Below, one piece after another: positions 9,095 to 25,046 of a DNA stretch of 64,000 nucleotides. A program made the translations under genes and the position numbers. The stretch is from the NCBI GenBank assembly GCA_016125335.1, contig WGLY01000024.1:1-64000 (forward strand), written 5' to 3'. Below the pieces are notes generated by a model. The model saw nothing but the letters and a program-made list of their open reading frames with translations. It did not search any database and was not told where the DNA came from. This DNA comes from Frankiales bacterium. GTDB lineage: Bacteria; Actinomycetota; Actinomycetes; S36-B12; CAIYMF01. Numbering within the stretch: position 1 is the stretch's first letter; each line of letters begins with the position of its first letter.

Positions 9095-10414
9095 TCAGGC
9101 GATCTCGGTCTCGAAGCGGCCCGCCTCGAGCCGCTCCTTGATCGTGGTGAGGAATCGTGCCGCGTCGGCCCCGTCGACGAGGCGGTGGTCGTAGGTCAGC
9201 GCCAGATGGGCCATCGACCGGATGGCGATGACGCGCTCGCCGTCGGGCCTGCGGACCACCACCGGACGCTCGACGACGGCGCCGGTGCCGAGGATCCCGA
9301 CCTGACCGGGGACGAGGATCGGGGTGTCCCACAGCGCGCCGCGGCTGCCGGTGTTGGTGAGCGTGAAGGTCCCGCCCGCCAGCTCGTCCGGGCCGATCGT
9401 GCCGCCCCGGGTGCGGGCGGCCACGTCCTCGATGCGGCGCGAGAGCCCGAGGACGTTGAGGTCCTGCGCGTCCCGGACCACGGGCACCATGAGCCCCTTG
9501 TCCGTGTCGACGGCGACACCGAGGTGCACGCCGGCGCGGGTCACCACGGTCGCGCCGTCCGGCTCGATCGAGGAGTTGAGCACCGGGTGCGCGCGCAGCG
9601 CCTCGACCGCGGCCTTGGCGAAGAAGGCCGTCAGCGTGAGTCGCACGCCCAGCCGGTCGCGCAGGTCCGCGGCGACCTCGCGGCGCAGCTCCACCACGCG
9701 GGTGACGTCGACCTCGACGACGCTCGTCAGCTGCGCCGACGTGTGCAGCGACGTCATCATCCGCTCCGCGACGACGCTGCGCAGGCGCGACATGGGCTCG
9801 CGCCGGTCGCCGGCGCCGAGCGGCACCGACGGCGTGGCGGGCCGTGCTGGAGCCGCCGCCGGGCCCGGAGCAGGTGCCGCCGCCATCCCGGGCGCGGCCG
9901 CGGCGGCACGCTCGACGTCGACCGGTGTGACGCGTCCGTGCGGCCCGGTGCCCGCGACGGCGTCGAGGGCGATCCCGTGCTCGCGCGCGAGCCGGCGCAC
10001 CCGCGGCGAGTGCACGTGGCGCGGCGCGCCCTCCACGCGGTCGGCGACGGCCGGCCCGCTGGTGCGCGCGGCCGGTTGCTCCGGCGCCGGCGCGGGGGAC
10101 GGCGGGGACCCGGGCGCGGAGGGAGCGTCGTCGGCCTCCGCGGCCGCGGGGGTGCCCCCGCCGCCCGTCGCGGCGCCGGCGGACCCGATCACCGCGAGCA
10201 CGGCGCCCACGGACACCGTCGAGTCCTCGCCGACGACGATCTCGAGGAGCGTGCCCGCCGCGGGCGAGGGCACCTCGGTGTCGACCTTGTCCGTGGAGAT
10301 CTCCAGCAGCGGCTCCTGGTCGGCGACGAGGTCGCCCACCTTCTTCAGCCAGCGGGTGACGGTGCCCTCGGCCACCGTCTCCCCCAGCTGCGGCATCGTG
10401 ACGTCCACGTTCAC
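9095..10414 (-). CDS. 2-oxoacid dehydrogenase E2 (dihydrolipoyl acyltransferase)
   Basis: A 439-residue E2 core. It has one N-terminal lipoyl domain (lipoyl Lys in EISTDKVDTEV, about residue 43), an alanine/proline-rich linker, an E1/E3-binding domain near residues 130-170 (SPRVRRLAREHGI...GTGPHGRVT) and a C-terminal catalytic domain ending with the acyltransferase motif YDHRLVDGADAARF. It transfers the acyl group from the E1 product to CoA. The start is GTG at 10414, overlapping the E1beta stop by 4 bp. No E3 (dihydrolipoamide dehydrogenase) is encoded nearby, so E3 must be shared with other complexes. It is the last gene of the operon. The exact oxoacid substrate cannot be read from sequence. 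Confidence 0.93.
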   Translation of the reverse strand: MNVDVTMPQLGETVAEGTVTRWLKKVGDLVADQEPLLEISTDKVDTEVPSPAAGTLLEIVVGEDSTVSVGAVLAVIGSAGAATGGGGTPAAAEADDAPSAPGSPPSPAPAPEQPAARTSGPAVADRVEGAPRHVHSPRVRRLAREHGIALDAVAGTGPHGRVTPVDVERAAAAAPGMAAAPAPGPAAAPARPATPSVPLGAGDRREPMSRLRSVVAERMMTSLHTSAQLTSVVEVDVTRVVELRREVAADLRDRLGVRLTLTAFFAKAAVEALRAHPVLNSSIEPDGATVVTRAGVHLGVAVDTDKGLMVPVVRDAQDLNVLGLSRRIEDVAARTRGGTIGPDELAGGTFTLTNTGSRGALWDTPILVPGQVGILGTGAVVERPVVVRRPDGERVIAIRSMAHLALTYDHRLVDGADAARFLTTIKERLEAGRFETEIA

Positions 10415-11388
10415 GGCTGCAGGGCCTTCTCCACCGTCGCCGCCACGCTGTCGGCGGAAGGCATCACCAGGTCCTCGAGCGAGTCGGCCGAGGGCAGCGG
10501 CACGTGCGGGGTGGTGATGCGCTGGACCGGGCCGTCGAGGTCCCAGAAGCACTCGTCGACCGCGAGCGAGGCGATCTCCGCGCCCCAGCCCAGCAGCCTC
10601 GGGTTCTCCTCGACCGTGAACAGCCGGCCCGTCCGCGAGACCGAGCCCAGGATCGTCGTCGTGTCCAGCGGCACCAGGGAGCGGACGTCGATCACCTCGG
10701 CGTCGATGCCGCGCGCCGCCAGCTGCTCGGCCGCGGCGAGGGCCCGCGGCACCATCATCCCGAGCGCGAGGATCGTCGCGTCGGAGCCGGCACGGCGCAC
10801 CTTCGCCACGCCCAGCGAGTCGACGACGTCGCCGTCGGGCACCTCGGCCTTCGTCGCGTACAGGCCCTTGTGCTCGAAGAAGAGCACGGGGTCGTCGCAC
10901 CGGATCGACGCCGCCATGAGCCCGACGACGTCCTCCGGGGTGGACGGCGTCACCACCTTGAGCCCCGGCACGGCCATCGCCCAGTTCTCGATCGACTGCG
11001 AGTGCTGGGCGCCGAAGCGCAGGCCGCCGCCGTTGCCCGTCTTGATGACCAGGGGGACGGTCACCTGGCCGTTGGTCATGTACCGGGTCTTGGCGATCTC
11101 GTTGACCACGATGTCCCAGCACACGGCGAAGAAGTCGCTGAACATGATCTCGGCGACCGGGCGCAGCCCGGTCATTGCCGCGCCCATCGCGGCGCCCAGG
11201 ATCGCCTGCTCGGCGATGGGGGTGTCGATCACCCGCTTCGGGCCGAACTCGTCGAGCAGCCCGACGGTGGTCTTGAACACCCCGCCGGCCCCGGCGACGT
11301 CCTCGCCGATGAGGACCACGTTCTCGTCGCGGCGCATCTCCTGCGCGATGCCGCGTGCGACCGCGTCGCGGTAGGTCAGCTCCGCCAT
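10411..11388 (-). CDS. 2-oxoacid dehydrogenase E1 beta (acetoin/pyruvate type)
   Basis: A 325-residue transketolase-like beta subunit that pairs with the E1alpha encoded just upstream to decarboxylate a 2-oxoacid (or cleave acetoin) with thiamine diphosphate. Characteristic segments are VVLIGEDVAGAGGVFKTT, RVIDTPIAEQAILGAAMG with the ThDP-binding Glu, FGAQHSQSIENW, KVVTPSTPEDVVGLM and EVIDVRSLVPLD. The start is ATG at 11388, overlapping the E1alpha end by 13 bp. The resemblance is closest to AcoB/PdhB of acetoin- or pyruvate-type complexes rather than to branched-chain enzymes, by motif memory only. Confidence 0.92.
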   Translation of the reverse strand: MAELTYRDAVARGIAQEMRRDENVVLIGEDVAGAGGVFKTTVGLLDEFGPKRVIDTPIAEQAILGAAMGAAMTGLRPVAEIMFSDFFAVCWDIVVNEIAKTRYMTNGQVTVPLVIKTGNGGGLRFGAQHSQSIENWAMAVPGLKVVTPSTPEDVVGLMAASIRCDDPVLFFEHKGLYATKAEVPDGDVVDSLGVAKVRRAGSDATILALGMMVPRALAAAEQLAARGIDAEVIDVRSLVPLDTTTILGSVSRTGRLFTVEENPRLLGWGAEIASLAVDECFWDLDGPVQRITTPHVPLPSADSLEDLVMPSADSVAATVEKALQP

Positions 11389-12440
11389 GACGAACCCCCA
11401 TCGGCCCACACGTCGGTGAAGGCGCTCTCGGGTGCGGGCAGGTCGCCGGCGATCGCCTCCTCTGTCGCGAGCTCGACCGCGCCGAGGACCTCCTCGTCGA
11501 GCCGGTCGAGGGTGCTCTCCTCGACGCCGATCCGCAGCAGGCGGCCCCGGTAGATCGTGATGGGGTCGTACGCCTTCCACGCCTCCACCTCGGCATCGGG
11601 CCGGTACTTGCCCGGGTCGGCGCGCGAGTGGCCGCCGTGCCGGTAGGTGAGCGCCTCCACCAGGGAGGGGCCGCCACCGCCGCGGGCCCGCTCGATCGCC
11701 GACCGCGCGGTCAGGTACACCTCGTCGACGTCGTTGCCGTCGATCACGATCGGCTCGAGCCCGTACGCCGGGGCGCGGTCGGCCGCCGGATGCGTGACCG
11801 CGGTGATGTCGGCGATCGACGTGTACTCCATGTACAGGTTGTTCTCGCAGACGAACACGATCGGCAGCTGATAGACGGCGGCGTAGTTGAGCGCCTCGTG
11901 GAACGCGCCGATGTTGGTGGTGCCGTCCCCGAAGAAGCACACCGCCACCTGGCCGGAGCCGCGGTACTGCGCGGACCACGCAGCACCGTTCGCGATGGTC
12001 ATGTGCGCGCCGATGATGGCGTAGGACCCCATCATCCCGTGCTCGACGCTGGTGAGGTGCATGGAGCCGCCCTTGCCGGCCATGAGGCCGTTCGAGCGCC
12101 CCAGCAGCTCGGCGAGCACCGGCGTCATGGGCACGCCGCGCGCCAGGGTGTGCGCGTGTCCGCGATAGGTGGCGAAGGTGTAGTCGTCCTTGCGCATCGC
12201 GGCGCCGAACCCGGCCGAGATCGCCTCCATGCCCAGCGAGAGGTGGCTGGTCCCCTTCACCAGCTGGCGCATGAACAGGTCGTAGGCGCGCTTCTCGAAC
12301 AGCCGCATCTCCTGCAGCTTGCGGTACATCGCCAGGCGCAGGTCGAGGTCGATGTCCGCGTCGTCGTGCCGGTCCTGTGCCTCGGGCGGGAGGACGACAC
12401 CGTGCTCGCCGTAGCGATGGTCGGACAGCGGGAGCCTCAT
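11376..12440 (-). CDS. 2-oxoacid dehydrogenase E1 alpha (acetoin/pyruvate type)
   Basis: A 354-residue ThDP-binding alpha subunit. The ThDP/Mg motif is GDGTTNIGAFHEALNYAA...CENN (the GDG...NN pattern), preceded by YRGHAHTLARG and GKGGSMHLT, with TYRHGGHSRADPGKYR after it. The N-terminal 40 residues form a short charged leader. The start is ATG at 12440, overlapping the M24 gene by 4 bp (ATGA). It acts with E1beta and E2 on an unknown oxoacid or acetoin-like intermediate made by the upstream enzymes of the operon. Confidence 0.92.
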   Translation of the reverse strand: MRLPLSDHRYGEHGVVLPPEAQDRHDDADIDLDLRLAMYRKLQEMRLFEKRAYDLFMRQLVKGTSHLSLGMEAISAGFGAAMRKDDYTFATYRGHAHTLARGVPMTPVLAELLGRSNGLMAGKGGSMHLTSVEHGMMGSYAIIGAHMTIANGAAWSAQYRGSGQVAVCFFGDGTTNIGAFHEALNYAAVYQLPIVFVCENNLYMEYTSIADITAVTHPAADRAPAYGLEPIVIDGNDVDEVYLTARSAIERARGGGGPSLVEALTYRHGGHSRADPGKYRPDAEVEAWKAYDPITIYRGRLLRIGVEESTLDRLDEEVLGAVELATEEAIAGDLPAPESAFTDVWADGGSSWRS

Positions 12441-13789
12441 GCGGTGGCTCCGGAGCCGGACCCGAGCTCGGTGTTGAGGTGGGACTGGCTGTCGCGCACC
12501 GCCGGAAGGTAGCCACCCGTCGTGTAATAGCGCTTGCCCGCCACCAGCAGCTCCTCCGCGGGGAACTTCGTGATGACCTCGCAGCCGGTCGCGGTCACGA
12601 CCAGCTCCTCCTCGATACGTGCCGCGCCCCAGCCGTCGCTGGCCGGCCAGTAGGTCTCGAGAGCGAAGACCATGCCTTCCTCGAGGGTCTCGGGGGCGTC
12701 GAACGAGGTGTAGCGCGAGAAGATCGGGCGCTCCCAGATCGACAGTCCGACGCCGTGCCCGTACTGCAGCGCGAACGCCGCCTCCTCGTCGGCGAAGCCG
12801 AACTCCTGCGCCGTGGGCCACAGCGAGACGATGTCCGCCGTCGTCGCCCCCGGCTTCACCGCCGCGATCGCCGTGTCCATGAGCTCCCGGCAGACGACGT
12901 AGGCGTCCCGCTGCGCCCGTGACGCGGACCCGACGGCGAACGTGCGGTAGTAGCAGGTCCGGTAACCCATGAAGCTGTGCAGGATGTCGAAGAACGCGGG
13001 GTCGCCGGGTCGGATGAGCCGGTCCGAGTACACATGGGGGTGGGGTGAACAGCGCTCCCCCGAGATGGCGTTGACACCCTCGACATGCTCCGAACCCAGG
13101 TCGTACAGCGTCTTCGCGACAAGCCCTACGCACTCGTTCTCGCGGACCCCTGGTCGCAGGAACTCGTACAGCTCCTCGTAGGCGGCATCGACCATCGATG
13201 CTGCCTGCGTCAGCAGCCCGATCTCGTCCGCGGTCTTGATGCGACGGGCCGCCAGGAAGCACTGCTGGCCGTCCACCACCGGCACGCCGGCCGCTTGGAG
13301 CGCGAGCAGGACGTCGGGCTCGATGACGTCGACACCGACAGGCTGGTGCTCCAGCCCGAAGTCACGCAGCACCTCGACGATCTTGTTGGCGACGTCCTCG
13401 GCGCGCCTCGCGCCGGGGCCTATCGTGCCGCGAAGGGTCGAGATGCCGGCTCGGTTGCCGTAGTGCTGACCGCGGCCTGCCTCGGCATGCGGTTCATCGA
13501 GCCACTCTGCCTGCAGCTGGTGGTGCCGGGCAGCCGATCCGAAGTCCCACAGGACCGGGTCGCCGCCGCGCGGCAGCAGGGCGAAGCGAATCATCTTGTC
13601 CATCGCCCACGTGCCGATGTGGGTCGATGTCATGTACCGGATGTTGTGGAAGTCGAAGGTGAGGAGCGCACCAAGGTCCGACCTCTCGAGCTCCGCCTTG
13701 AGGCGGGCCAACCGCTCGATCCGGAGGCGGCCCATGTCGAGCCGGTGCTCCCAGTCGACCTGGTTGGTGCCGTAGGTGGGGGAAACCAT
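12437..13789 (-). CDS. Creatinase/prolidase-like M24 family protein with an altered metal site
   Basis: A 450-residue pita-bread-fold protein: an N-terminal creatinase-like domain (about 1-190) and an M24 domain (about 195-430). Against the usual metal ligands D-D-H-E-E it has the first Asp (PAFFDILHS), but the second Asp position falls in GYRTCYYRTF, where Cys stands in the place of Asp. The His (YGHGVGLS) and both Glu (FALETYW, RIEEELVV) are present. The C-terminal ITKFP is a creatinase-like signature. It may be a C-N hydrolase such as a creatinase- or ectoine-hydrolase-like enzyme rather than a peptidase. ATG at 13789 has AGGAG 6 nt upstream; the gene lies 2 bp after the transporter gene. 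Confidence 0.8.
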   Translation of the reverse strand: MVSPTYGTNQVDWEHRLDMGRLRIERLARLKAELERSDLGALLTFDFHNIRYMTSTHIGTWAMDKMIRFALLPRGGDPVLWDFGSAARHHQLQAEWLDEPHAEAGRGQHYGNRAGISTLRGTIGPGARRAEDVANKIVEVLRDFGLEHQPVGVDVIEPDVLLALQAAGVPVVDGQQCFLAARRIKTADEIGLLTQAASMVDAAYEELYEFLRPGVRENECVGLVAKTLYDLGSEHVEGVNAISGERCSPHPHVYSDRLIRPGDPAFFDILHSFMGYRTCYYRTFAVGSASRAQRDAYVVCRELMDTAIAAVKPGATTADIVSLWPTAQEFGFADEEAAFALQYGHGVGLSIWERPIFSRYTSFDAPETLEEGMVFALETYWPASDGWGAARIEEELVVTATGCEVITKFPAEELLVAGKRYYTTGGYLPAVRDSQSHLNTELGSGSGATA

Positions 13790-13791
13790 CG

Positions 13792-16305
13792 CTACTCCTG
13801 ACTCGAGGAAGCGGACACCAGCGCGCGCCTGCGAGCGCCGGAGAAGATCGCGGCACCGAGGAGGATGAGCAGGCCCGGGAGCCACTCCTGCCACGCCTGA
13901 TCGAGGTTGAGGAAGCTCGTGGCCGAGATGACCGTCTGGATCAGCAGCGCTCCCAGGAGCGCTCCGACGTACGATCCTCGGCCGCCGAAGATGCTGGCCC
14001 CGCCGAGGACCACGGCGGTGATGCTGGTGAGCGTGTACTGCGCCCCGACCCCGGCCTGACCCACCCCGACCAGGCTGCACAGCACGACGCCCCCCAGCGC
14101 GGCGAACGCGGCGCAGACCACGTGCGCCAGCACCACGGTCCGGGCGACCGGCGCGCCAAGGCGGCGTGCTCGGATCTCGTCGGAACCCACGGCGCGCAGG
14201 GTGATGCCCGCGCGGCTGCGGCGCAGGAGGTACTCGGCAGCGACCACGACGGCGAGGGTGACCAGGAAGGCCACCGGAACCGGACCGAGCTTGGCCTGGA
14301 GGAGCGAGATGGTGGACGAGTCGATGTAGCCCTCGGGGTTGGGTCGCAGCAGCAGGGCCAGACCCTGGAGCACGATGTAGGCCACCAGCGTCGCGATGAC
14401 GGCAGGAAGTCTGAGGAACCTGACCGCGACCCCGTTGACGAGTCCCACCACTGCGCCGACGAGCACCGACACGAGGGCCCCCTGCAGGAGCCCGGCTGAC
14501 CCGGCGCCGTCCACGGCGAAGAACGACATGATCACGATGACGAGCCCGACTAGCGGTCCGACGGACAGGTCGATGCTTCCCACGAGGAGCGTGGTGAGCT
14601 GGCCCACCGACACGAGCACGAGAATGGCCGTGAGGAGCAGGAGGCCGGACAGGTTGCGGGCGCTGAGGAACAGCGGATTCCTGCTGTACGCCAGGGCCAT
14701 GAGCGCGACGAGCAGCACCCCGAGCACGAGGCTCGGGGCGTAGTCGCCTCCGGCGAGTCGACGAAGGCCGGCCCTGCGGTCGGAGCTCGACCCCTCGGCC
14801 CTGCCGGTGCCGACGCGGCTGGTGCGAGCCGTGATGGCCGCGCCGGTGATCGCGCGCTCCGTCAGCTCGTCCCCGGTGAGCTCCCTGACCACCTGCCCGC
14901 GCGAGAACACCAGCACGCGGTCGCAGAGACCGGCCAGCTCGACCGCGTCCGACGACAGCGCGACGACGACCTTGCCGGAGTCGGCGAACTCTCGGAGGAG
15001 CCGGTAGATCTCGACGCGCGCCCCGACGTCGACGCCGCGCGTGGGCTCGTCGGCCAGCAGCACGGACGGCTCCGCCGCGAGCGAGCGGGCGAACAGCACC
15101 TTCTGCTGGTTGCCGCCCGACAGGCTCGAGACCGGGGATTCGGTACCAGGTGTCCGGATGGCCAGGGAGGAGACGGCGTCTGAGGCCACCTCGCGTTCGC
15201 GGCGCGCGTCGATGACACCGCCGCGGGACACCCCTGAGAGCACCAGGGCGGTCGTGTTCTCCCGCACCGTCAGGGGGAGGAAGAGCCCTTCGACGTGGCG
15301 GTCGCCCGGAAGATGGACCACGCCCGAGGCGGCTACGGACGCCGGGGAGCGGTGGCCGACCTCGCGCGAGTCGATGCTGATCCTCCCGACGGAGGGGGTC
15401 AGCCCGGCGAGCGCCCGCAGGAAGTCGCGTTGACCGTTCCCCTCGACGCCCGCGAGCCCGATGATCTCGCCCCGGCGAGCACCCAGGTCGACTCCGGAGA
15501 ACCGTGCACCCGACAGCCCCGACACCTCGAGGAGCGGTGCACCGTCCGTGGGAGCGTGGTCCGGTCTGACCGGGAAGACGTGGTCGACCTCGCGACCGAC
15601 GATGAGCTCGAGGATGTCGTCCTCGGTGACGTCGGATGCCGGGAACGTGCCGCGCAGCCTGCCGTCCCGGAGCACGCTGATGCGATCGGCGATCCGCTGC
15701 ACCTCGGGGAACCGGTGCGAGATATAGACGATGCCGGCACCGGCCGTGCGCAGCGCCGAGATCTGCTCGAAGAGCAGCTCGCTCTCGGCCTCGGTGAGCG
15801 ACTCGGTCGGCTCGTCCAGGACGAGCACCTGGCTCTCGAGCGCGAGTGCGCGGGCGATCTCGACGAGCTGGCGCTGCGCCTGGCCGAGCTCCTCGACCCG
15901 GTCCCCGGCCCGCGCGGTGCACCCGACCGCGGCGAGGTGGCCACGCACCCACTCTGCGGCCTCGGAGCCGGCAGGACGCCGGTCCTCGGGCAGCGCGACG
16001 AGCAGGTTCTCCCGGACCGTGAGGTCGTCGAGCGTGGTGGCGTGCTGGTAGACGACGGCGAGACCGAGCTCTTGGGCCGCCGCCGGCGCCACCCGCGACA
16101 ACCGACGTCCCCCGATCTCGACCGAGCCCGCGTCCGGCGCGAGCGCACCGGCCGCGATGGCCATCAGCGTCGACTTGCCCGCACCGTTCTCGCCGACGAG
16201 GGCGTGGACCTCGCCGGGGCGCACGGTGAAGGACACGTCCGAGAGCGCGCGGACGCTCCCGAAGGTCTTCGAGATGGAGTCGAGTCGGAGGACGTCGGTA
16301 GTCAC
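13792..16305 (-). CDS. Sugar-type ABC importer: two ATPase domains fused to a permease
   Basis: An 837-residue single polypeptide. ATPase domain 1 spans about 1-240 (Walker A GENGAGKST at 38-46, Walker B VLVLDEPTESL). ATPase domain 2 covers about 250-500, with a degenerate Walker A (GVEGNGQ) but a good signature LSGGNQQ, as in RbsA/MglA. A permease domain covers about 525-837 with around ten helices and the family loop GSIDLSVGPLVGL and GGASIFGGRGSYVGALLGA. RbsA-type ATPases (~500 aa) and RbsC-type permeases (~320 aa) are normally separate proteins, so this is a fusion. No stop or frameshift is visible at the junction. The GTG start is preceded by AAGGGA. The protein works with the lipoprotein and the second permease encoded upstream. 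Confidence 0.9.
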   Translation of the reverse strand: MTTDVLRLDSISKTFGSVRALSDVSFTVRPGEVHALVGENGAGKSTLMAIAAGALAPDAGSVEIGGRRLSRVAPAAAQELGLAVVYQHATTLDDLTVRENLLVALPEDRRPAGSEAAEWVRGHLAAVGCTARAGDRVEELGQAQRQLVEIARALALESQVLVLDEPTESLTEAESELLFEQISALRTAGAGIVYISHRFPEVQRIADRISVLRDGRLRGTFPASDVTEDDILELIVGREVDHVFPVRPDHAPTDGAPLLEVSGLSGARFSGVDLGARRGEIIGLAGVEGNGQRDFLRALAGLTPSVGRISIDSREVGHRSPASVAASGVVHLPGDRHVEGLFLPLTVRENTTALVLSGVSRGGVIDARREREVASDAVSSLAIRTPGTESPVSSLSGGNQQKVLFARSLAAEPSVLLADEPTRGVDVGARVEIYRLLREFADSGKVVVALSSDAVELAGLCDRVLVFSRGQVVRELTGDELTERAITGAAITARTSRVGTGRAEGSSSDRRAGLRRLAGGDYAPSLVLGVLLVALMALAYSRNPLFLSARNLSGLLLLTAILVLVSVGQLTTLLVGSIDLSVGPLVGLVIVIMSFFAVDGAGSAGLLQGALVSVLVGAVVGLVNGVAVRFLRLPAVIATLVAYIVLQGLALLLRPNPEGYIDSSTISLLQAKLGPVPVAFLVTLAVVVAAEYLLRRSRAGITLRAVGSDEIRARRLGAPVARTVVLAHVVCAAFAALGGVVLCSLVGVGQAGVGAQYTLTSITAVVLGGASIFGGRGSYVGALLGALLIQTVISATSFLNLDQAWQEWLPGLLILLGAAIFSGARRRALVSASSSQE

Positions 16306-16316
16306 GTCAGCATCCC

Positions 16317-17504
16317 TTACGGCTTGCCGTACTTCGCGAGCTCGTCAGCCGTGATCTGGTTGCTGTTGTAGAAGTCGTCACCCTGCGACGCGTCGCACTT
16401 GGGCTCGAGACCGGCGGTCGAGTCCTCGATCAGCGGCAGCGTGTACGTGCTCGGCTCGTTGATCGTGACACCCTCGGCGGCTGCGATCGCCTGGCGTGCG
16501 GCGACCCGCCCGAGCCAGTTGCGCGACGAGATCGTGGCGAGCTGGAACTTGGTGTCGCCCGCCGCCTTCTCCTTCTGGTACAGGCAGCCGAGTCCGTTCG
16601 CCTCGAGCGTGGCGATCGGCACGAGCGGGCGCCCTGCGGCCTGCATGGCACGCGTCGCGGCGAGCGCGTCCGTGCCGTAGTCGGAGATGATGCCGTCGAT
16701 CTGCGGGTACTTGGCGAGCAGCGACGCCATCACCTTCTGCGCCGTGGCCGGGTCCCAGTTGGTGACGGGCCAGTCCTTGTCACCGGTCAGCAGCTTCATC
16801 CCGGGGTTCTGCGAGAACACCTGGACGACGGACTTGAGCTGTCCGGCCGTCACGGGGTTGCCGGCCGGACCGCCGATGAAGACGACGTTGCCCTTGCCGC
16901 CGAGCGTCTTGACCATCCACTCAGCCCACTTGGTGCCGGCGTCGGGGCTGCTCCAGTCGACGTAGGTCACGTAGTCGGTCCCCGGCGTCCCGCCCGGGTC
17001 CGCAGCCCACGGGACCACCTTGACGCCGGCGTCCGTCGCGGCCTTGATCGACGCGAGCTGCGCCTGCCCGAAGTCGGGGATGATGACGAGCGCGTTCGCG
17101 CCCTGCGCCACCATCGAGTTGACCTGAGAGATGCTCTTCTGCAGGTCGCCCTCACCGATCTGGACCACGGTGGTGACGTTGGGGCACTTGGCGGCCTCGG
17201 AGCGCACGGCCGCGAGCGACGCCTGCGACCAGGCGTTGACACCGAACCCGTCGTGGACCGCCAGCGTGATGGGCTTGTCCCCGCAGAACGCCGTGCTGTC
17301 GGTCTTGCCGGCGGAGGCCAGCTCTTGCGCCTCGGTCATCGTGAACGTGGACGCCGACGCCGCTGGGGACGACGCGGACGAACCGTCCGTCGCCGCCGGG
17401 GAGGACGAGCCCGTGTCGGTCGAGGAGCCGCAGGCGGCGAGGAGCGCCGCCGACAGCACGACGGAGAGTGCGCCCAGGAGTGGGCGCCGTGCGTTGGTGT
17501 GCAT
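16317..17504 (-). CDS. Sugar-type ABC transporter solute-binding lipoprotein
   Basis: A 395-residue exported lipoprotein. The signal peptide has a basic start, a hydrophobic core and the lipobox LLAAC (Cys at about 25), followed by a Ser/Thr/Ala linker. The mature part is a type I periplasmic-binding fold (Peripla_BP_4 / ribose-binding group) with INxxxxxxADALVI-type features: SQVNSMVAQGANALVIIP, VKVVPWAADPG and IDGIISDYGTDALAA. It delivers an unknown ligand to the fused ATPase-permease and the second permease. ATG at 17504 has GGAGG upstream. The next gene starts 11 bp after its stop. Confidence 0.9.
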   Translation of the reverse strand: MHTNARRPLLGALSVVLSAALLAACGSSTDTGSSSPAATDGSSASSPAASASTFTMTEAQELASAGKTDSTAFCGDKPITLAVHDGFGVNAWSQASLAAVRSEAAKCPNVTTVVQIGEGDLQKSISQVNSMVAQGANALVIIPDFGQAQLASIKAATDAGVKVVPWAADPGGTPGTDYVTYVDWSSPDAGTKWAEWMVKTLGGKGNVVFIGGPAGNPVTAGQLKSVVQVFSQNPGMKLLTGDKDWPVTNWDPATAQKVMASLLAKYPQIDGIISDYGTDALAATRAMQAAGRPLVPIATLEANGLGCLYQKEKAAGDTKFQLATISSRNWLGRVAARQAIAAAEGVTINEPSTYTLPLIEDSTAGLEPKCDASQGDDFYNSNQITADELAKYGKP

Positions 17505-17606: not shown

Positions 17607-18644
17607 CTATGCGGAGCCGACGGGTGGTGCGCCGGGCCGAGCGGCCCGAAGGCGGTCCCACGGGATGGTGCGCGCTGCCATGCCGATGCCGATGGCAGCG
17701 CCTTGGATCAGGAGCTGGACCGACTGCGGGGCACCAGCCCCGAAGACGACCTGCTGGAGCTGGGTGAGGAAGAGAGCTCCCACAGCGCTCGCCACGACGC
17801 TGCCTCCTCCGCCGACGAGCGACGTCCCGCCGAGCACGACGGCCGCGATCGAGGGGAGCAGGTAGGTGTCGCCGACGGACAGACCTGGCGTGCGCAGATA
17901 GCCGGCGATGAGGATGCCGCCGACGGCGTACAGGAACCCGGCGACGACGTAGGTCGAGACGACGAACCGCCGTACCGGCATGCCCGCGGCACGTGCCGCG
18001 GGGGCGCTGGTCCCTATCGCGACGAACCGGCGGCCTACCGTGGTCGTCCGGATCACGAGCGCGACGACGAGGATGACGGTCACTGCGACAAGCACCAGGT
18101 TGGGCACCCCCAGGACGTCGCCGAAGGCGAAGTCACCCAGCGCGGGCGGCGCGGAGGCGGTCGAGCTGCCGCCCGTGACCTTGAGGATCACTCCCAGCAG
18201 CACGGCGTTCACCCCGAGCGTCGCCACCAGCGGGGTGATGCCGAACCGTGCGATGGCCACGCCGCTGACGAGTCCGGCCAGCACCCCCACGAGAAGCGCG
18301 ACCGCGACGGCCTTGAGCAGCTGGTCGTCGTTCCCGTCACTGAGCTTCGTCACCGCGATCGCTGACAGCGACATGACACCCGGCACCGCGAGGTCGAGCC
18401 CGCGCTGCTGGATCACGAGCGTCTGGCCCGCGGCGACGACGGCGAGCACGGCCGCGAAGGGCAGCATGCTCTGCAGAGCCGAGACGCCCGCGCTCCCGGA
18501 CGCGATGAACGGGCTGACCAGGAAGAGCACCACCGTCGCGGGCCAGATGGGGAAGTACGGCGAGCGCACGACGGATCGCAGCCTGCCGGCAGCGGCGCTG
18601 CCGGGTGCCTCGGCCGCACGGGCCGGGCTCTGCGTCGTGCTCAC
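17607..18644 (-). CDS. Sugar-type ABC transporter permease
   Basis: A 345-residue inner-membrane permease of the ribose/xylose (RbsC, BPD_transp_2) family with about nine helices. It has the conserved QRGLDLAVPGVMSL (usually GGIDLSVG), GITPLVATLG and LGGTSLVGGGGSVVASAVGALFL. GTG start at 18644. It probably forms a heterodimeric channel with the permease half of the fused protein, because the operon encodes two different permease domains. It sits between the SDR gene (42 bp) and the binding-protein gene (102 bp). Confidence 0.88.
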   Translation of the reverse strand: MSTTQSPARAAEAPGSAAAGRLRSVVRSPYFPIWPATVVLFLVSPFIASGSAGVSALQSMLPFAAVLAVVAAGQTLVIQQRGLDLAVPGVMSLSAIAVTKLSDGNDDQLLKAVAVALLVGVLAGLVSGVAIARFGITPLVATLGVNAVLLGVILKVTGGSSTASAPPALGDFAFGDVLGVPNLVLVAVTVILVVALVIRTTTVGRRFVAIGTSAPAARAAGMPVRRFVVSTYVVAGFLYAVGGILIAGYLRTPGLSVGDTYLLPSIAAVVLGGTSLVGGGGSVVASAVGALFLTQLQQVVFGAGAPQSVQLLIQGAAIGIGMAARTIPWDRLRAARPGAPPVGSA

Positions 18645-18686: not shown

Positions 18687-19439
18687 CTACTTGGCGGTCC
18701 AGCCACCGTCGACGACGAGGCTCGCGCCCGTGACGTAGGACGCGGGCGCCGAGAGGAGGAAGACGACGGCAGCGGCGATCTCGTCCGCCTCACCGATGCG
18801 GCCCACGGGGGTGAACTCGGACAGCGAGTCCTCGTATCCCGGTGTGGCGTCGAGGATCGGGGTCAGCATCGGGGTGCGCACGAAGCCCGGCGCGAGGCAG
18901 TTGACGCGGATCGTGGGAGCGAGCTCGACCGCCAGCTGGCGAGCGAGCGACTCGGTGGCCCCCTTGGTCGCCGAGTAGGCGGCGCAGGCCGGGAATCCCG
19001 CGTGCGCCGTCGTGCTCGAGACGAAGACGACGGACGAGCCGGCGGCCATCAGCGGAGCCGCTCTCTGCACCATCAGCAGGTGCGACACCACGTTGGTGTT
19101 CCACTGGCGCTGGATCGAGTCGAGGGTCATCTCCGCGAGCGGACGCGGGTCGAACAGGCTGGCGTTGAGGACGAGCCCGTCGATGTGGCCGAAGGCCGAG
19201 ACGGCGGTGTCGACGAGCCCGGGGACTGCCTCGAGATCCTCGAGGTCGACCGGCGCCTGGACGGCTCGGCCCCCGCTGTCCTCGACCGCCGACTGGACGG
19301 CCTGCAGACGCTCGGGGTCCCGCCCCTGCAGGACGACGGCCGCTCCACGACGCCCGAGCTCTCGTGCCACGGCGGCGCCCATGCCCGAGCTCGCCCCGGT
19401 GACGACGACGCTGCGGCCCTGCATGTCGCGTTCGGTCAT
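18687..19439 (-). CDS. Short-chain dehydrogenase/reductase, first gene of the catabolic operon
   Basis: A 250-residue classical SDR. The NAD(P)-binding TGASSGMGAAVA is near residue 15, the NNAG-equivalent reads LNAS, the catalytic Ser lies in FVSSTT, and YSATK holds the catalytic Tyr-Lys. LAPGFVRTPM and the C-terminal YVTGASLVVDGGW are typical. It likely oxidises a secondary alcohol in the pathway served by the operon. ATG at 19439 with AGGAG upstream. It is the promoter-proximal gene of an apparently single transcription unit running down to the E2 gene. Confidence 0.88.
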   Translation of the reverse strand: MTERDMQGRSVVVTGASSGMGAAVARELGRRGAAVVLQGRDPERLQAVQSAVEDSGGRAVQAPVDLEDLEAVPGLVDTAVSAFGHIDGLVLNASLFDPRPLAEMTLDSIQRQWNTNVVSHLLMVQRAAPLMAAGSSVVFVSSTTAHAGFPACAAYSATKGATESLARQLAVELAPTIRVNCLAPGFVRTPMLTPILDATPGYEDSLSEFTPVGRIGEADEIAAAVVFLLSAPASYVTGASLVVDGGWTAK

Positions 19440-19512
19440 CTGAGTGCTCCTCCTGGGCGTCGTGGCGTGGCCGGTCGGGACTGTGTCCGTGGCGGGTGCC
19501 GGGTGGAGCGGG

Positions 19513-19542
19513 ACGCTAGGCGGGAGTTAACAGCACTGTCAA
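19513..19542 (-). promoter_or_regulatory. Promoter for the SDR-transporter-M24-E1/E2 operon
   Basis: Reading the minus strand, TTGACA (19542-19537) is followed after 18 bp by TAGCGT (19518-19513), a strong sigma70-like pair; transcription would begin near 19506, giving a leader of about 67 nt. Two AGCACTG repeats overlap or abut the -35 box. Confidence 0.7.
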
Positions 19543-19624
19543 GCACTGCTAAACGGCGCGACACAATCGTGACCGTCGGCAGCACTGAAGCGGCGGCCGG
19601 GCACGGAATCGTTCACAAGCACTT
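19532..19624. promoter_or_regulatory. AGCACT(G/T) repeat array in the divergent control region
   Basis: AGCACTG occurs at 19532-19538, 19542-19548 (one helical turn apart) and 19581-19587, and AGCACTT at 19618-19624, all in the same orientation. The first two cover the minus-strand -35 box and the last overlaps the plus-strand -35 box. The arrangement suits an operator for coordinated control of the divergent catabolic genes. Confidence 0.5.
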
Positions 19625-19653
19625 GACGCGCCCCGGATGCCCGTCGTTACAGT
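19623..19653 (+). promoter_or_regulatory. Promoter for the amidohydrolase gene
   Basis: TTGACG at 19623-19628 and TACAGT at 19648-19653 are spaced by 19 bp (18 if TTACAG is taken). The predicted start is near 19660, about 50 nt before the ATG. Confidence 0.6.
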
Positions 19654-19708
19654 GCCGACCTCCCGAGGGTCGTCACCGGCCCCCTCCCCCTGCCACCGAG
19701 GAGCCCTC

Positions 19709-21085
19709 ATGGCCGCTGGCCGGTACCTCATCAAGGGCGCCTGGGCGCTCACCCAGGACCCGCAGCTCGGCGAGATCCGCTCCGCCGACGTCCTCGTCGA
19801 GGACGGAGTGATCCAGGCCGTGGCGCCGGACCTGGGGGACGTCGACGCCGAGGTCATCGACGGCACGGACCGTTTCGTGCTCCCAGGCTTCGTCGACACG
19901 CACCGCCACAGCTGGCAGTCGCTGATCCGTCACATGTCCACGGACTGGACCCTGCCCCAGTACTTCTCGGGCGTCCGCGGGGTGCTCGGCAACAAGTACA
20001 CGGCCGAGGACATGTACGCCGCGAATCTCATCGCGATGCTCGACGCCCTCGACTCGGGCATCACCACGCTGGTCGACTGGTCGCACAACAACAACTCCCC
20101 CGAGCATGCGGACGCCGCGATCCAGGCGGTGCTCGACTCGGGGATCCGCGCGGTGTGGGCCTACGGCAACTCCAACGACGAGTGGCTGCCGGTGAGCGAC
20201 GTTCCCCAGTCGCGGGACGTGGTGCGCATCGCTGAGAAGTGGTTCTCCTCCCCGGACCAGCTCGTGACGCTGGCGCTCGCGCCCCGCGGTCCGCAGTTCG
20301 CCACCCGCGACGTGACGCTGCAGGACTTCGCGCTGGCGAAGGAGCTCGACATCCCCGTCACCGTCCACGTGGGCGACGGCGCCTGGGGCAAGAGCCTTCC
20401 CGTCCTCTGGATGGAGGAGAACGGCCTCGCGACCGATCGGACCACGTACGTCCACTGCAACGCCCTGTCCGACGCCGAGTACGACGTCATCGCACGGACA
20501 GGCGGCGCGATCTCCATCGCTCCTGAGCTCGAGATGCACATGGGGCACGGGACGCTGGCCACGCTGCGTGCGATCTCTCGGGGGATCACGACGTCACTGT
20601 CGATCGACGTGTGCACGTCCGTCGGCGGTGACATCTTCAGCGCGATGAGGGCCTGCCTGGCGGGCACGCGGTACCTCGTCAACGTCGAGGCGCTCGCGCA
20701 GGACGTCGCGGTCGACCCGCTTCCGGTGCTCGCCACCCAGGTGCTCGAGTTCGCGACCCAGGGCGGCGCCACGGCGGCTTGGCTGGGCGACAAGGTGGGC
20801 TCGCTGACACCGGGCAAGCGCGCAGACATCGTGCTGCTCCGCACGGACGTCTACGGCATGCAGCCGCTGAACTACCCCGCCGGCGCGGTGCTCGAGTCAG
20901 GGAACCCGCAGCTCGTCGACACGGTCATGGTCGACGGCACGATCGTGAAGCGGGACGGCGCTCTCGTGGGCCACGACTTCGCCCGTGTCCGCCGCCTGGC
21001 GGAGCAGGCGCGCGACCGGGTGCTCGCCGCGTCCGGCGTCTCGGACCCAGGGCGTTGGCTGCCCGAGGTCTACCCGGCGTCCTGA
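19709..21085 (+). CDS. Metal-dependent amidohydrolase (cytosine deaminase / TrzA-AtzB-like)
   Basis: A 458-residue amidohydrolase-superfamily TIM-barrel enzyme. It has the N-terminal beta-sandwich, the H-x-H metal motif in GFVDTHRHSWQS, HVGDG with a third His, YVHCNALSD, and the catalytic Asp in SIDVCTS, followed by LTPGKRADIVLL. Family members remove amino, halide or alkylamino groups from heterocycles (cytosine, guanine, S-adenosylhomocysteine, s-triazines); the substrate here is unknown. ATG at 19709 has AGGAG upstream and a good promoter. It is divergent from the transporter operon and ends at a 14-bp hairpin, so it is monocistronic. It is a likely key hydrolytic step for whatever the transporter imports. 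Confidence 0.88.
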   Translation: MAAGRYLIKGAWALTQDPQLGEIRSADVLVEDGVIQAVAPDLGDVDAEVIDGTDRFVLPGFVDTHRHSWQSLIRHMSTDWTLPQYFSGVRGVLGNKYTAEDMYAANLIAMLDALDSGITTLVDWSHNNNSPEHADAAIQAVLDSGIRAVWAYGNSNDEWLPVSDVPQSRDVVRIAEKWFSSPDQLVTLALAPRGPQFATRDVTLQDFALAKELDIPVTVHVGDGAWGKSLPVLWMEENGLATDRTTYVHCNALSDAEYDVIARTGGAISIAPELEMHMGHGTLATLRAISRGITTSLSIDVCTSVGGDIFSAMRACLAGTRYLVNVEALAQDVAVDPLPVLATQVLEFATQGGATAAWLGDKVGSLTPGKRADIVLLRTDVYGMQPLNYPAGAVLESGNPQLVDTVMVDGTIVKRDGALVGHDFARVRRLAEQARDRVLAASGVSDPGRWLPEVYPAS

Positions 21086-21148: not shown

Positions 21149-22168
21149 TCACCGGACGTGGATGACGACCTTCCCGCCGGAACGGCCCTCCGCAAGGGGT
21201 ACCAGCCCTTCGTCGACCGCCGCCTCGAGCGGGACGTCGACGTGGCGCAGCGACGGCCGGGCGGCGTCGAGAATCTCGAGCGCGCGCGGCAGATCGGTGT
21301 CGACGACGTGTGCCACCGAGGTCCGGACGTCGACTTCGGCCAGCACCCACGGGGTCAGCGCGACCGGCTGCGGTCCTGACGGCAGTCCCACCGCCTGCAC
21401 GGTCCCTCCCCTGCGCACCAGCGACAGCGCCCGTCCGAAGGCCCCCGCGGCTCCCGACGTCTCGAACACCACGTCGGCGCCACGTCCTGCGGACAGGCTC
21501 GACACCACGCGCTCGAGGTCGTCGACGTGCACGACGGTGGCCGTCGGCGCCAGCTGACGCGCGCTCGCCAGGCTCGCGGCAGCGACGTCGGCCACGACCA
21601 GGTGCCCGACCGCGGTGGCAGCCAGGCCCAGCAGCACGAACGAGCCGATCGCACCCGCCCCCAGCACCACGACCAGGTCTCCGTCGCCGGCGCCGGATCG
21701 GTCCACTGCATGCAGCCCCACAGCCAGAGGCTGCGCGAGGACCGCCAGCTCGTCCGGGAGGGTGTCGGGCACCGGCTTCAGGGTCGCGACGGGGACCGCC
21801 ACCCGCTCGGCCGCGCCGCCGTCGAGGGACAGGCCGAGCGTGGCGTAGGCCCAGCACAGGTTGGTCCTGCCCTCCCGGCACCGCGGGCAGGCGCCGCACG
21901 AGACGCCCGCCCCGCTCACCACACGGCTGCCCCGCGGCGGGCCCTCGCCCGCCGGGTCCGGCTCGAGGACCGTCCCCACGAACTCGTGCCCGATCACGGT
22001 GGGGACCTCGCGACGCATCAGCGTCGGACCCTTGGCGTACTCGCTCGCGTCCGTGCCGCACAGGGCCGCCAGCGACACGGCCACGACGCACGAGCCGGAC
22101 GTCGCCGCCGGCTCGGGGCGGTCCTCCACCCGGACGTCGTGTGGACCGTGATAGACGACGGCGCGCAT
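21149..22168 (-). CDS. Zinc-dependent medium-chain alcohol dehydrogenase
   Basis: A 339-residue MDR enzyme. The catalytic zinc site is CGTD plus GHEFVG; the structural zinc cysteines lie in SCGACPRCREGRTNLC; the Rossmann motif is VVLGAGAIGSF. It resembles the threonine/sorbitol/butanediol dehydrogenase group that oxidises secondary alcohols. Start ATG at 22168 overlaps the upstream stop (TGATG), so translation is coupled to the beta-hydroxyacid dehydrogenase. The C-terminus (GGKVVIHV) is complete. It likely acts in the same catabolic route as the neighbouring operon. Confidence 0.88.
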   Translation of the reverse strand: MRAVVYHGPHDVRVEDRPEPAATSGSCVVAVSLAALCGTDASEYAKGPTLMRREVPTVIGHEFVGTVLEPDPAGEGPPRGSRVVSGAGVSCGACPRCREGRTNLCWAYATLGLSLDGGAAERVAVPVATLKPVPDTLPDELAVLAQPLAVGLHAVDRSGAGDGDLVVVLGAGAIGSFVLLGLAATAVGHLVVADVAAASLASARQLAPTATVVHVDDLERVVSSLSAGRGADVVFETSGAAGAFGRALSLVRRGGTVQAVGLPSGPQPVALTPWVLAEVDVRTSVAHVVDTDLPRALEILDAARPSLRHVDVPLEAAVDEGLVPLAEGRSGGKVVIHVR

Positions 22169-23049
22169 CAGACCTCCCACGACAGCCGCGCCAGGTCATC
22201 GGCGCCGAGGCCAGCCTCCCGCGCGGCATCGATGCCGCGAGCGACCGCCTCCCAGACTGGTGTCCCGACACCTGCGGCAGCTGCCAGGTCTACTGCGAGC
22301 CGGAGATCCTTCGCCGCCAGGTCGAGGCTGAAAGCGACCGGCGACCCGCGCTCCAGAAAGGCCTCGCGCTTGTACGCCAGGTACGGCGCGGCCACCGCGC
22401 TCCGAGCCAGGACGTCGTACGCAGCGTCACGGTCGACTCCGCTCGACTCCGCGACACGCAGAGCCTCGGCGAGTCCGGCGTTGAGCGCGAAGAGCACCGC
22501 GTTCACGCAGAGCTTCATGGCGGCCCCCGCACCTCCCATGCCGACATGGACGACCTCGCGGGCCAGGACGCCGAGGAGCACTGATCGCAGGGACTCGACG
22601 TCCTCGGCAGCACCGCCGGCCATCACCAGGAGGCTGCCATCGCGCACGGCCGCGATGCTGCCCGACACAGGTGCGTCGACGAACCGCACCCCGGAGGAGC
22701 GCAGCGCCGCGTGCACCCGGCCCACGGACCCGGGCCCGGAGGTGCCCAGATCCGCGAGCAGCACGTCGTGCCCCTCTGCCCCGGAGAGGACGCCGTCGGC
22801 ACCGAGCACGACGTGCTCGAGCGCCGAGCCGTCGGACAGGAATGCCAGCAGGTGGTCCGCCGAGCGGGCAGCGTCCGCCGGTGTCTCCGCGAGCGTGACG
22901 TGCGCGTCGGGATGATCGTGGCGCCAGCGCCGCACCGACGCGGGCGTGCGGGACCAGGCCGTGACGCTCATCCCGCGAGCGGCCAGGCGGGCGGCGGCCG
23001 CGCCACCCATCCGTCCGAGCCCGAGAACAGCGACGGACCTGGCGCTCAC
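22168..23049 (-). CDS. NAD(P)-dependent beta-hydroxyacid dehydrogenase (3-hydroxyisobutyrate dehydrogenase family)
   Basis: A 293-residue two-domain enzyme. The N-terminal dinucleotide motif is LGLGRMGGAAAARL; the substrate-binding DAPVSGS is near residue 122, and GGAGAAMKLCVN contains the catalytic Lys. The C-terminal helical domain ends with ARLSWEV. Family members oxidise 3-hydroxyisobutyrate, tartronate semialdehyde or related compounds. The start is taken as GTG at 23049; the ribosome-binding site is weak, and longer starts upstream are open but carry no family-like sequence. It forms a two-gene unit with the alcohol dehydrogenase. Confidence 0.82.
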   Translation of the reverse strand: MSARSVAVLGLGRMGGAAAARLAARGMSVTAWSRTPASVRRWRHDHPDAHVTLAETPADAARSADHLLAFLSDGSALEHVVLGADGVLSGAEGHDVLLADLGTSGPGSVGRVHAALRSSGVRFVDAPVSGSIAAVRDGSLLVMAGGAAEDVESLRSVLLGVLAREVVHVGMGGAGAAMKLCVNAVLFALNAGLAEALRVAESSGVDRDAAYDVLARSAVAAPYLAYKREAFLERGSPVAFSLDLAAKDLRLAVDLAAAAGVGTPVWEAVARGIDAAREAGLGADDLARLSWEV

Positions 23050-23240
23050 TTTCGGGCCCCGCCCTTCGCCGGGTCGAGCCGGGCGCACCACACCCGTGCG
23101 GTGGTGAAGCCTGACTCGACACATCTGCTTCGGTCGGACCAATAGTTCAGTATTCATTGACTTCTCGTCCAGTCCCGCTGAACAATCCGGGACACGCGGC
23201 GGGCCCGGCCGGGTCACGCCCTCGCCCCGGGAGGACAGAC

Positions 23241-24191
23241 ATGACGGACCGGAAGACGATCGCCGTGGTCGGCGCGACGGGCGCCCAGGGAGGCGGGCTG
23301 GTCCGCGCCATCCTCGCCGACCCCGACGGAGGGTTCGCCGCGCGAGCACTCACGCGTGATCCCTCGTCCGAGGCCGCTCGCGCCCTGGCCGACGCCGGTG
23401 CCGAGGTGGTCCAGGTCGACATCGACGACGACGCCTCGCTCGCGGCCGGGCTCGACGGCGCCCACGGCGCGTTCTTCGTGACGTTCTTCTGGGCGCACTT
23501 CTCCGCCGAGCAGGAGGACGCGGAGGCGCAGCGCTTCGCCCGGTCCGCGGCACGAGCCGGCCTCGAGCACGTCGTGTGGTCGACACTGGAGGACACGCGG
23601 CGGTGGGTCCCCCTCGATGACGACCGCATGCCCACCCTGCAGGAGCAGTACAAGGTTCCGCACTTCGACGCGAAGGGCGCCGCCAACCACTACTTCACCG
23701 ACGCCGGCGTCCCGACCACGTTCCTGCAGACCACCTTCTACTGGGACAACATGATCCACTTCGGGATGGGGCCGCAGCGGGGCGCGGACGGCGCGCTGAC
23801 GCTGACCCTCCCGATGGGTGACGCCCGGCTGTCGGGGATCTCGGCCGATGACATCGGCGTCGTCGCGTACGGCATCTTCACGGCAGGCAGAGACCTGGCC
23901 GGGGAGACGGTGTCGATCGCCGGCGAGCACCTCACCGGCAGCGAGATGGCGGCCCAGTTGTCGAGCGCTCTCGGGGAACCGGTCACCTACGCCGCGATCG
24001 AGCCCGACGACTACCGTGCGCTCGGCTTCCCGGGCGCCGACGACCTCGGCAACATGTTCCAGTTCTACCGGGACTTCAACGACTACTTCGTCTCGGAGCG
24101 GCCGCTCGACGCCGTGCGGCGGCTGCACCCGGGGCTGAAGTCGTTCGACGACTGGCTGGCAGTCAACAAGGACCGCATCCCGCTGGGCTGA
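23241..24191 (+). CDS. NmrA/HSCARG-like NAD(P)-binding protein
   Basis: A 316-residue atypical SDR of the NmrA family. It has an N-terminal VVGATGAQGGGLVRAIL, RALTRDPSS, a VFFVTFFW-like stretch (FFVTFFWAHFS) and the TTFYWDNMI segment seen in HSCARG-type redox sensors. It has no classical YxxxK, so it may be a cofactor-sensing regulator or a dehydrogenase. ATG at 23241 has GGGAGGA upstream. It is divergent from the beta-hydroxyacid dehydrogenase gene across a 191-bp gap whose centre (23140-23165) is notably AT-rich for this genome. It is convergent with the XRE regulator across a hairpin. Confidence 0.82.
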   Translation: MTDRKTIAVVGATGAQGGGLVRAILADPDGGFAARALTRDPSSEAARALADAGAEVVQVDIDDDASLAAGLDGAHGAFFVTFFWAHFSAEQEDAEAQRFARSAARAGLEHVVWSTLEDTRRWVPLDDDRMPTLQEQYKVPHFDAKGAANHYFTDAGVPTTFLQTTFYWDNMIHFGMGPQRGADGALTLTLPMGDARLSGISADDIGVVAYGIFTAGRDLAGETVSIAGEHLTGSEMAAQLSSALGEPVTYAAIEPDDYRALGFPGADDLGNMFQFYRDFNDYFVSERPLDAVRRLHPGLKSFDDWLAVNKDRIPLG

Positions 24192-24254: not shown

Positions 24255-24971
24255 TCAGTGCGAGTGACGCACGAACCACACGCCGCGCGCCGGTGTCTCT
24301 CCCAGGTTCCGGAAGATGTGAGGGGTCGCCGAGTCGAACCCCACGGAGTCGCCCGGACGCATCGTGAACGAGTCGAACCCGATGGTGATCTCGAGCTCGC
24401 CCTCGAGCAGGAACCCGCACTCGAATCCTGCGTGCTGAAGCATGCGGTCGTCGGTCGTCGAGCTCCCGTGGGGTGGATAGATGATCTCGATGAAGTCGAG
24501 GTCGTCACCCGTGTTGGCCGCCAGCTGCTCCCACACGACCCCGCTGTCCATGACGATGCGCGGTCGCTCGTGGGGCCGGACCACGGACCACTGCGAGCGG
24601 CCCACACCACGCTCGAAGGCGTCCGCGGGGGAGCCCAGAGTCGACCGGTTGACCCGGCCGGCCAGCACCGCGCTCACGCTCGGCGCCTCCGGCGCGCTCG
24701 GCTCCGCGCCGTTCTCCCCCGGGACCGGGGGCGAGGATGCGACAGCCTCACCGCTGTCGTGGAAGAGAGCGTCGATCGACGTGTCGAGCAGCCTGGACAA
24801 CGAGTACAGGGTCGCGACGGAGGGCTGCGACTTGCCGTTCTCCATCTGCGAGACGAACGACGGGCTCACCCCCAGCTGCCGCGCGAGCTCGCGAAGGCTC
24901 AGGCCTGCAGCGACCCGCGCATCGCGCAGTCGTGATCCGAGCTGATCGGCAGGCGAATCCGCTGCGCCCAC
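24255..24971 (-). CDS. XRE-family regulator with C-terminal cupin domain
   Basis: A 238-residue transcription factor. The N-terminal helix-turn-helix (about 12-66) reads LRDARVAAGLSLRELARQLG then VSPSFVSQMENGKSQPSVATL. A variable linker follows, and a C-terminal cupin_2 sensor (about 160-235) has GFLLEGELEITI and PHIFRNLGE. Proteins of this layout (PuuR-like) control catabolic operons and bind small ligands in the cupin. GTG at 24971 has GAGGTGAC before it. As the only transcription factor in the 7.9-25.1 kb region, it is the best candidate for controlling the catabolic genes. Confidence 0.9.
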   Translation of the reverse strand: MGAADSPADQLGSRLRDARVAAGLSLRELARQLGVSPSFVSQMENGKSQPSVATLYSLSRLLDTSIDALFHDSGEAVASSPPVPGENGAEPSAPEAPSVSAVLAGRVNRSTLGSPADAFERGVGRSQWSVVRPHERPRIVMDSGVVWEQLAANTGDDLDFIEIIYPPHGSSTTDDRMLQHAGFECGFLLEGELEITIGFDSFTMRPGDSVGFDSATPHIFRNLGETPARGVWFVRHSH

Positions 24972-25017: not shown

Positions 25018-25046
25018 ATGTTAACTGCTTCTGCACAGACCGTCCA
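25018..25046 (-). promoter_or_regulatory. Promoter for the XRE-cupin regulator, with GTTAACTGC
   Basis: Minus-strand TGGACG (25046-25041), a 17-bp spacer and TAACAT (25023-25018). The -10 box overlaps GTTAACTGC (25020-25028), nearly the same as GTTAACAGC at 19526-19534 in the divergent control region. A shared site would mean autoregulation. Confidence 0.5.

Follow-up and report, generated by a model that had tools for sequence, protein, structure and literature searches.

A predicted 17-bp palindromic operator shared by the promoters of an actinobacterial degradation cluster and of its XRE-cupin regulator

The closest described relatives of the regulator considered here are the XRE-cupin proteins of Pseudomonas, which are reported to be local repressors that bind core promoters beside their own genes through palindromes (PMC7901475). 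For the XRE family as a whole, 223 motif clusters are described as having been derived by upstream scanning (PMC12565409), and the palindrome defined below may already be among them. The literature that names 'XRE-cupin' is concerned, as far as its accessible text goes, with Pseudomonas or with general XRE motifs. Our literature search found no description of such an XRE-cupin operator in actinobacteria, and a search with the letters of the palindrome returned unrelated papers only.

The window, which is the whole stretch of DNA that was analysed, comprises 64,000 nucleotides of high-GC actinobacterial DNA within a 3.93-Mb assembly. Positions 19440-19708 part a run of genes on the minus strand from an amidohydrolase gene of the PRK08204 group on the plus strand (19709-21085). 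The minus run is headed by an SDR dehydrogenase gene (18687-19439), with genes for a CUT2-type ABC transporter (permease, 17607-18644; sugar-type substrate-binding protein, 16317-17504; ABC ATPase-permease fusion, 13792-16305), an M24 family protein with the prolidase/creatinase fold (12437-13582) and the E2, E1-beta and E1-alpha components of a 2-oxoacid dehydrogenase type complex (9095-12440), all on the minus strand. On the other side lie genes for a zinc alcohol dehydrogenase-like protein (21149-22180, minus strand), a 3-hydroxyisobutyrate dehydrogenase-like protein (22168-23085, minus strand, with an uncertain start between 23010 and 23085), an NmrA-like NAD(P)-binding protein (23241-24191, plus strand) and an XRE-cupin regulator (24255-24971, minus strand). 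The M24 gene was considered as the DMSP lyase DddP and rejected at 72 bits against an NCBIfam equivalog cut-off of 600, and its scores as an ectoine hydrolase or prolidase fall far under the cut-off. Its product is 92.7% identical to that of L084 4707-5852 in a genome of the same genus (G008), and the adjoining amidohydrolase there is 37% identical. No Rfam family matched in the window, and PADLOC gave matches on it at the HTH level only.

The regulator combines an N-terminal XRE/Cro-type HTH (HTH_3, E = 9e-17, residues 15-68) with a C-terminal cupin sensing domain (Cupin_2, E = 1.2e-13, residues 164-233), and it probably binds each of the six operators described below. Its recognition-helix segment, SPSFVSQ (S-P/A-S-x-x-S-Q), is largely conserved across XRE-cupin relatives. 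The best solved relative by sequence is the HTH_3 family regulator of PDB 1y9q, to which the HTH aligns well and the cupin part weakly. The best NCBIfam match is PuuR, an HTH-cupin repressor of E. coli with the same two-domain layout, at 60.6 bits against an equivalog cut-off of 211, and an assignment as PuuR was rejected. The targets of PuuR differ from the genes of this cluster.

Comparison with other loci shows that the conserved unit is a 17-bp interrupted palindrome, GTNNA(S)-N5-(S)TNNAC (idealised as GTTCAGTGNCACTGAAC), one half of which is usually the TTGAC of a -35 box. It was recognised by side-by-side reading of intergenic sequences, where GTNNA is followed after seven bases by the TTGAC of the -35 box. 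A symmetrised matrix was built from 13 sites first spotted by eye and was afterwards kept fixed. The top six matches to this matrix in the 64 kb, which begin at 23145, 19538, 19611, 23167, 25020 and 23104, all fall in three control regions of the cluster, and three of them (23167, 25020 and 23104) were not among the training sites. When the idealised GTTCAGTGNCACTGAAC was searched with at most three mismatches only the site at 23167 was matched in the window, so this consensus suits the family better than it suits this genome.

Two of these sites occupy the divergent control region. The TTGAC of operator O1 (GTTTAGCAGTGCTTGAC; 19538-19554, minus strand; score 17.6) is the -35 box of the predicted SDR/ABC operon promoter, TTGACA-18-TAGCGT (19513-19542, minus strand), and the TTGAC of operator O2 (GTTCACAAGCACTTGAC; 19611-19627, plus strand; score 17.1) is that of the predicted amidohydrolase gene promoter, TTGACG-19-TACAGT (19623-19653, plus strand). 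Both promoters were read from the sequence by eye and are present as the initial annotation gave them. A further control region lies between the dehydrogenase and NmrA-like genes, where the predicted promoter TTGACT-18-AACAAT (23157-23186) has one operator on its -35 box (GTTCAGTATTCATTGAC; 23145-23161, plus strand; score 20.5) and another on its spacer and -10 box (GTCCAGTCCCGCTGAAC; 23167-23183, plus strand; score 17.1). A weaker operator (GTGAAGCCTGACTCGAC; 23104-23120, plus strand; score 15.1) lies at least about 20 bp ahead of the dehydrogenase gene, the start of which is uncertain. The three operators of 23104-23183 are thus packed into about 80 bp around the sole sigma-70-like promoter found in 12-30 kb, and the top-scoring site of the cluster (23145, 20.5) lies outside 19440-19708. 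The last operator (GTTAACTGCTTCTGCAC; 25020-25036, plus strand; score 15.6) is 65 bp ahead of the XRE-cupin start and overlaps the -10 box and spacer of the likely promoter of that gene, TGGACG-17-TAACAT (25018-25046, minus strand, identified by eye). All window operators except the one at 23104 overlap a predicted -35 box, spacer or -10 box.

The strict pattern GTNNA-N7-TTGAC has three matches in the window (19538-19554, 19611-19627 and 23145-23161), where 0.19 would be expected, and none of 100 shuffles had as many. The 3.93-Mb genome contains 17 matches (10 for the reversed control), three of which lie within 3.6 kb in the cluster. Three of the other 14 score at least 14. In this genome the regulon seems to be local, as judged from the strict pattern genome-wide and a full matrix scan of the window, because the strict matches elsewhere that reach this score all fall inside predicted ORFs.

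We assign a probability of roughly 0.78 to the reading that 19440-19708 is an operator region with two palindromes, where a dimer of the XRE-cupin protein represses the promoters of the cluster and its own until a pathway compound binds the cupin domain. The initial annotation had likewise proposed an operator region with the XRE-cupin protein as its likely regulator and a related site in that gene's own promoter at 25020, and on these points it agrees with the palindromes. The region would then be the divergent control region of a degradation cluster with one 17-bp operator for each -35 box. The XRE-cupin protein (24255-24971) would dock on these operators as a dimer and block RNA polymerase at the SDR/ABC, amidohydrolase and dehydrogenase/NmrA promoters and at its own by hiding the -35 or -10 box, and it would be a local, self-regulating repressor that releases the DNA once its cupin domain is occupied by a pathway compound. 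Comparison with the XRE-cupin proteins of Pseudomonas, which bind core promoters and repress, makes repression by occlusion likely. What the analysis shows is the sites themselves, where they stand on the predicted promoters, how they are conserved and how they go with this regulator family; we infer that the XRE-cupin protein binds the operators, that it represses rather than activates, and that there is an inducer. The palindrome could instead be the site from which the same protein activates, placed beside RNA polymerase at the -35 box, and this is improbable. Class II activators also use the -35 position, which the sites overlap in most promoters, but the -35 boxes come close to the consensus (TTGACA, TTGACG and TTGACT), and two sites (25020 and 23167) are placed on the spacer or the -10 box, an unlikely spot for an activator. 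The Pseudomonas relatives that were tested are, moreover, all described as repressing (PMC7901475).

The same palindrome is found in other genomes. Amidohydrolase loci of 70-78% identity were taken from public genomes (L031-L037 and L041) and from genome G196, and several of these loci have the same ABC/SDR genes in divergent orientation to the amidohydrolase gene. Exact matches to the palindrome occur twice in G196 (L082) and twice in L043, and once each in L032, L033, L034, L036, L039, L040 and L084; none was found in L031, L035, L037, L038, L041, L042, L044-L051, L083 or L085-L087. The strict pattern was scanned over L131-L150 before the matrix was built, so these loci are a hold-out for the matrix and not for the idea. 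Among the 21 loci without a training site (L084 and L131-L150), the best site exceeds all 60 shuffles in 10, against 0 of 12 controls. At a cut-off of 14, the 27 hold-out loci have three sites in 326 kb of coding sequence versus 35 in 78 kb of intergenic sequence, with 7 of these 35 coming from L135 and L143, which are lower in GC and have almost no genes called, the simple gene caller failing there. The 12 control loci have one coding site and no intergenic site at this cut-off, in an intergenic length that is inflated by the simple gene caller. Because codon periodicity blurs whole-locus counts, the offset counts were redone on intergenic sequence, for which 6 of the 12 control loci were usable. 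In the intergenic sequence of 33 hold-out loci, GTNNA stands exactly 12 upstream of 10 out of 105 TTGAC, and the 25 other offsets combined give 39 matches.

The sites recur with the regulator gene. Two groups of loci with an XRE-cupin relative were examined, a first of 21 (19 of L084 and L131-L150, plus L037 and L042) and a second of 20 that was fetched later. A site scoring at least 14 lies within 1.5 kb of the relative in 15 loci of the first group and 10 of the second (0.7 expected in each). With the fixed matrix, this amounts to 25 of 41 XRE-cupin loci (1.4 expected), whereas none of the 18 amidohydrolase loci that lack an XRE-cupin relative has such a site (0.9 expected), in counts that treat loci as independent though many are related. 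A site of at least 12 stands just upstream of the XRE gene in only 17 of 34 relatives, a result that uses scores only; the per-locus background fraction was discarded because short loci consist mostly of the site's own region, which spoils it. Sites in the hold-out loci are found ahead of XRE genes and also ahead of M24 genes (L138, L139, L143 and L149), SDR genes (L084 and L131) and gene runs for a permease or alcohol dehydrogenase (L131, L132 and L134). The same module occurs in a genome outside the class (G727), in a cluster (L170, 7538-9028) where two XRE-cupin genes adjoin each other. One possible operator precedes M24 there, and three fall between SDR and XRE.

A regulator encoded elsewhere might own the palindrome, with the XRE-cupin gene merely its neighbour. 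We think this quite unlikely. It would fit L035 and L036, which have sites and no XRE-cupin gene in the stretch examined, and the 16 of 41 XRE-cupin loci that have no site of at least 14 within 1.5 kb (L136, L140, L141, L142, L144, L037, L169 and L171-L179), but the sites accompany the XRE-cupin gene and not the amidohydrolase alone, they occur within the XRE gene's own promoter, and the genes scanned between 7.9 and 25 kb yielded no DNA-binding protein other than the XRE-cupin protein. Also at odds with the favoured reading, some 11 kb separate the regulator gene from the divergent promoter in G196. In L175-L179, which contain amidohydrolase, M24 and XRE genes, the matches near XRE are only weak (9.7-13.8), and the operator may have drifted there along with its regulator.

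The initial annotation had described two motif classes, taking GTTAACWGC as the XRE site and AGCACT(G/T) as a second operator, possibly bound by that regulator or by a different one. Every one of these short motifs is present (AGCACTG at 19532, 19542 and 19581, AGCACTT at 19618, GTTAACAGC at 19526 and GTTAACTGC at 25020), yet a division into two operators is very improbable, as a single 17-bp palindrome accounts for both classes. In orthologous promoters it is this palindrome that recurs; the short motifs as originally written are not the conserved unit. Four AGCACTK copies on one strand in 93 bp were seen in 0 of 5000 dinucleotide shuffles of 19440-19708. Of the motifs that were first described (REINTERPRETING), however, the AGCACT copies at 19542 and 19618 lie within the two operators as their inner bases, not as the site of another regulator, and it is these two that cover the -35 boxes as the initial annotation had said of the repeats. 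The copy at 19532 is just downstream, on the -35/spacer of the minus promoter and within a 12-bp continuation of O1 (TTGAC-N7-TTAAC, minus strand). The copy at 19581 (19581-19587, plus strand) is between the two promoters and outside the operators, and together with the AA that follows it resembles an isolated half-site, CACTGAA.

GTTAACWGC has exactly two copies in the 3.93-Mb genome, both in the cluster (19526 and 25020), and the backwards pattern has one. As an XRE site it holds at 25020, where GTTAACTGC is the left end of the operator, and fails at 19526-19534 (plus strand), where GTTAACAGC is no operator by matrix score: no 17-mer starting at 19526 scores above 0, and the 17-mer ending in GTTAAC (19515-19531) reaches 7.9 only. 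Of the two copies genome-wide, the one at 25020 alone fits an operator. At most, GTTAACAGC may be a half-site or a decayed copy that has perhaps lost one base, because a Frankiales locus (L034) carries a full operator (GTTAAGCAGCACTGGTC, score 14.9) at the corresponding position. Both short motifs were rejected as conserved units, AGCACTK with no enrichment in the window and GTTAACWGC with two genome copies only, of which the one at 19526 does not score as an operator. That the repeats are chance products of promoter sequence with a biased composition is hardly credible: across the whole window AGCACTK shows no enrichment (7 copies against 6.5 expected), and the four-copy repeat alone is only moderately surprising because one 6-mer or another turns up four times in 2.6% of the 5000 dinucleotide shuffles of 19440-19708, but for the palindrome this explanation is already contradicted by the hold-out loci, and the strict matches in the window, the strong sites at XRE-cupin loci and the preferred offset of GTNNA from TTGAC all speak against it.

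The distances between XRE-cupin operators suggest how the dimers might be arranged. Twelve neighbouring pairs that score at least 14 in one control region have start-to-start spacings of 22, 22, 22, 24, 41, 43, 43, 53, 63, 64, 73 and 104. In this first set most of them lie close to a multiple of 10.4 (R = 0.86, Monte Carlo p = 1e-5; p = 8e-4 for the 9 distinct spacings). A scan of periods from 5 to 25 over all 23 pairs scoring at least 12 peaks at 10.3. A later set of six pairs (41, 43, 51, 52, 78 and 91) taken alone did not confirm the phasing (p = 0.31). O1 and O2 are 73 bp apart, which is 7 turns of 10.4, and the corresponding operators of the divergent region are 53 bp apart in G196 and 104 bp apart in L034, with the phase kept. 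Tentatively, XRE-cupin dimers could bind cooperatively from one face of the helix, with a small loop bridging both operators at the divergent promoter, an arrangement that we consider possible but doubtful. The spacing varies between orthologous regions yet stays near whole turns, so that a single looped complex would silence the two promoters at once.

What began as a loose repeat is now a defined operator for which a regulator and a regulon are predicted, and the regulator's family has been characterised mainly in Pseudomonas. The matrix offers a handle on an actinobacterial gene set that includes an M24 protein, an amidohydrolase, an SDR, dehydrogenases and a CUT2 transporter, and a compound that frees the XRE-cupin protein from its operator should belong to the pathway of the cluster. 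Among XRE regulators, DdrO of Deinococcus has no cupin domain, a DNA-damage regulon and a motif of different sequence. It likewise belongs to the XRE family and is described with a motif 17 bp wide (PMC12565409). The local XRE-cupin repressors of Pseudomonas (PsdR, PauR, ErfA, PA1359 and others) resemble the present system; they are described as joining an HTH to a cupin domain, as controlling neighbouring metabolic genes from palindromic sites in core promoters, and as having suspected autoregulation and small local regulons (PMC7901475). Here, six predicted palindromic operators are found in three control regions, in the core promoters of neighbouring metabolic genes. The present locus differs in its phylum and gene content and in that several operators share a control region, often at close to whole helical turns from one another. 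The type of system is a known one, described in Pseudomonas, with an operator and a regulon that appear to be newly predicted here.
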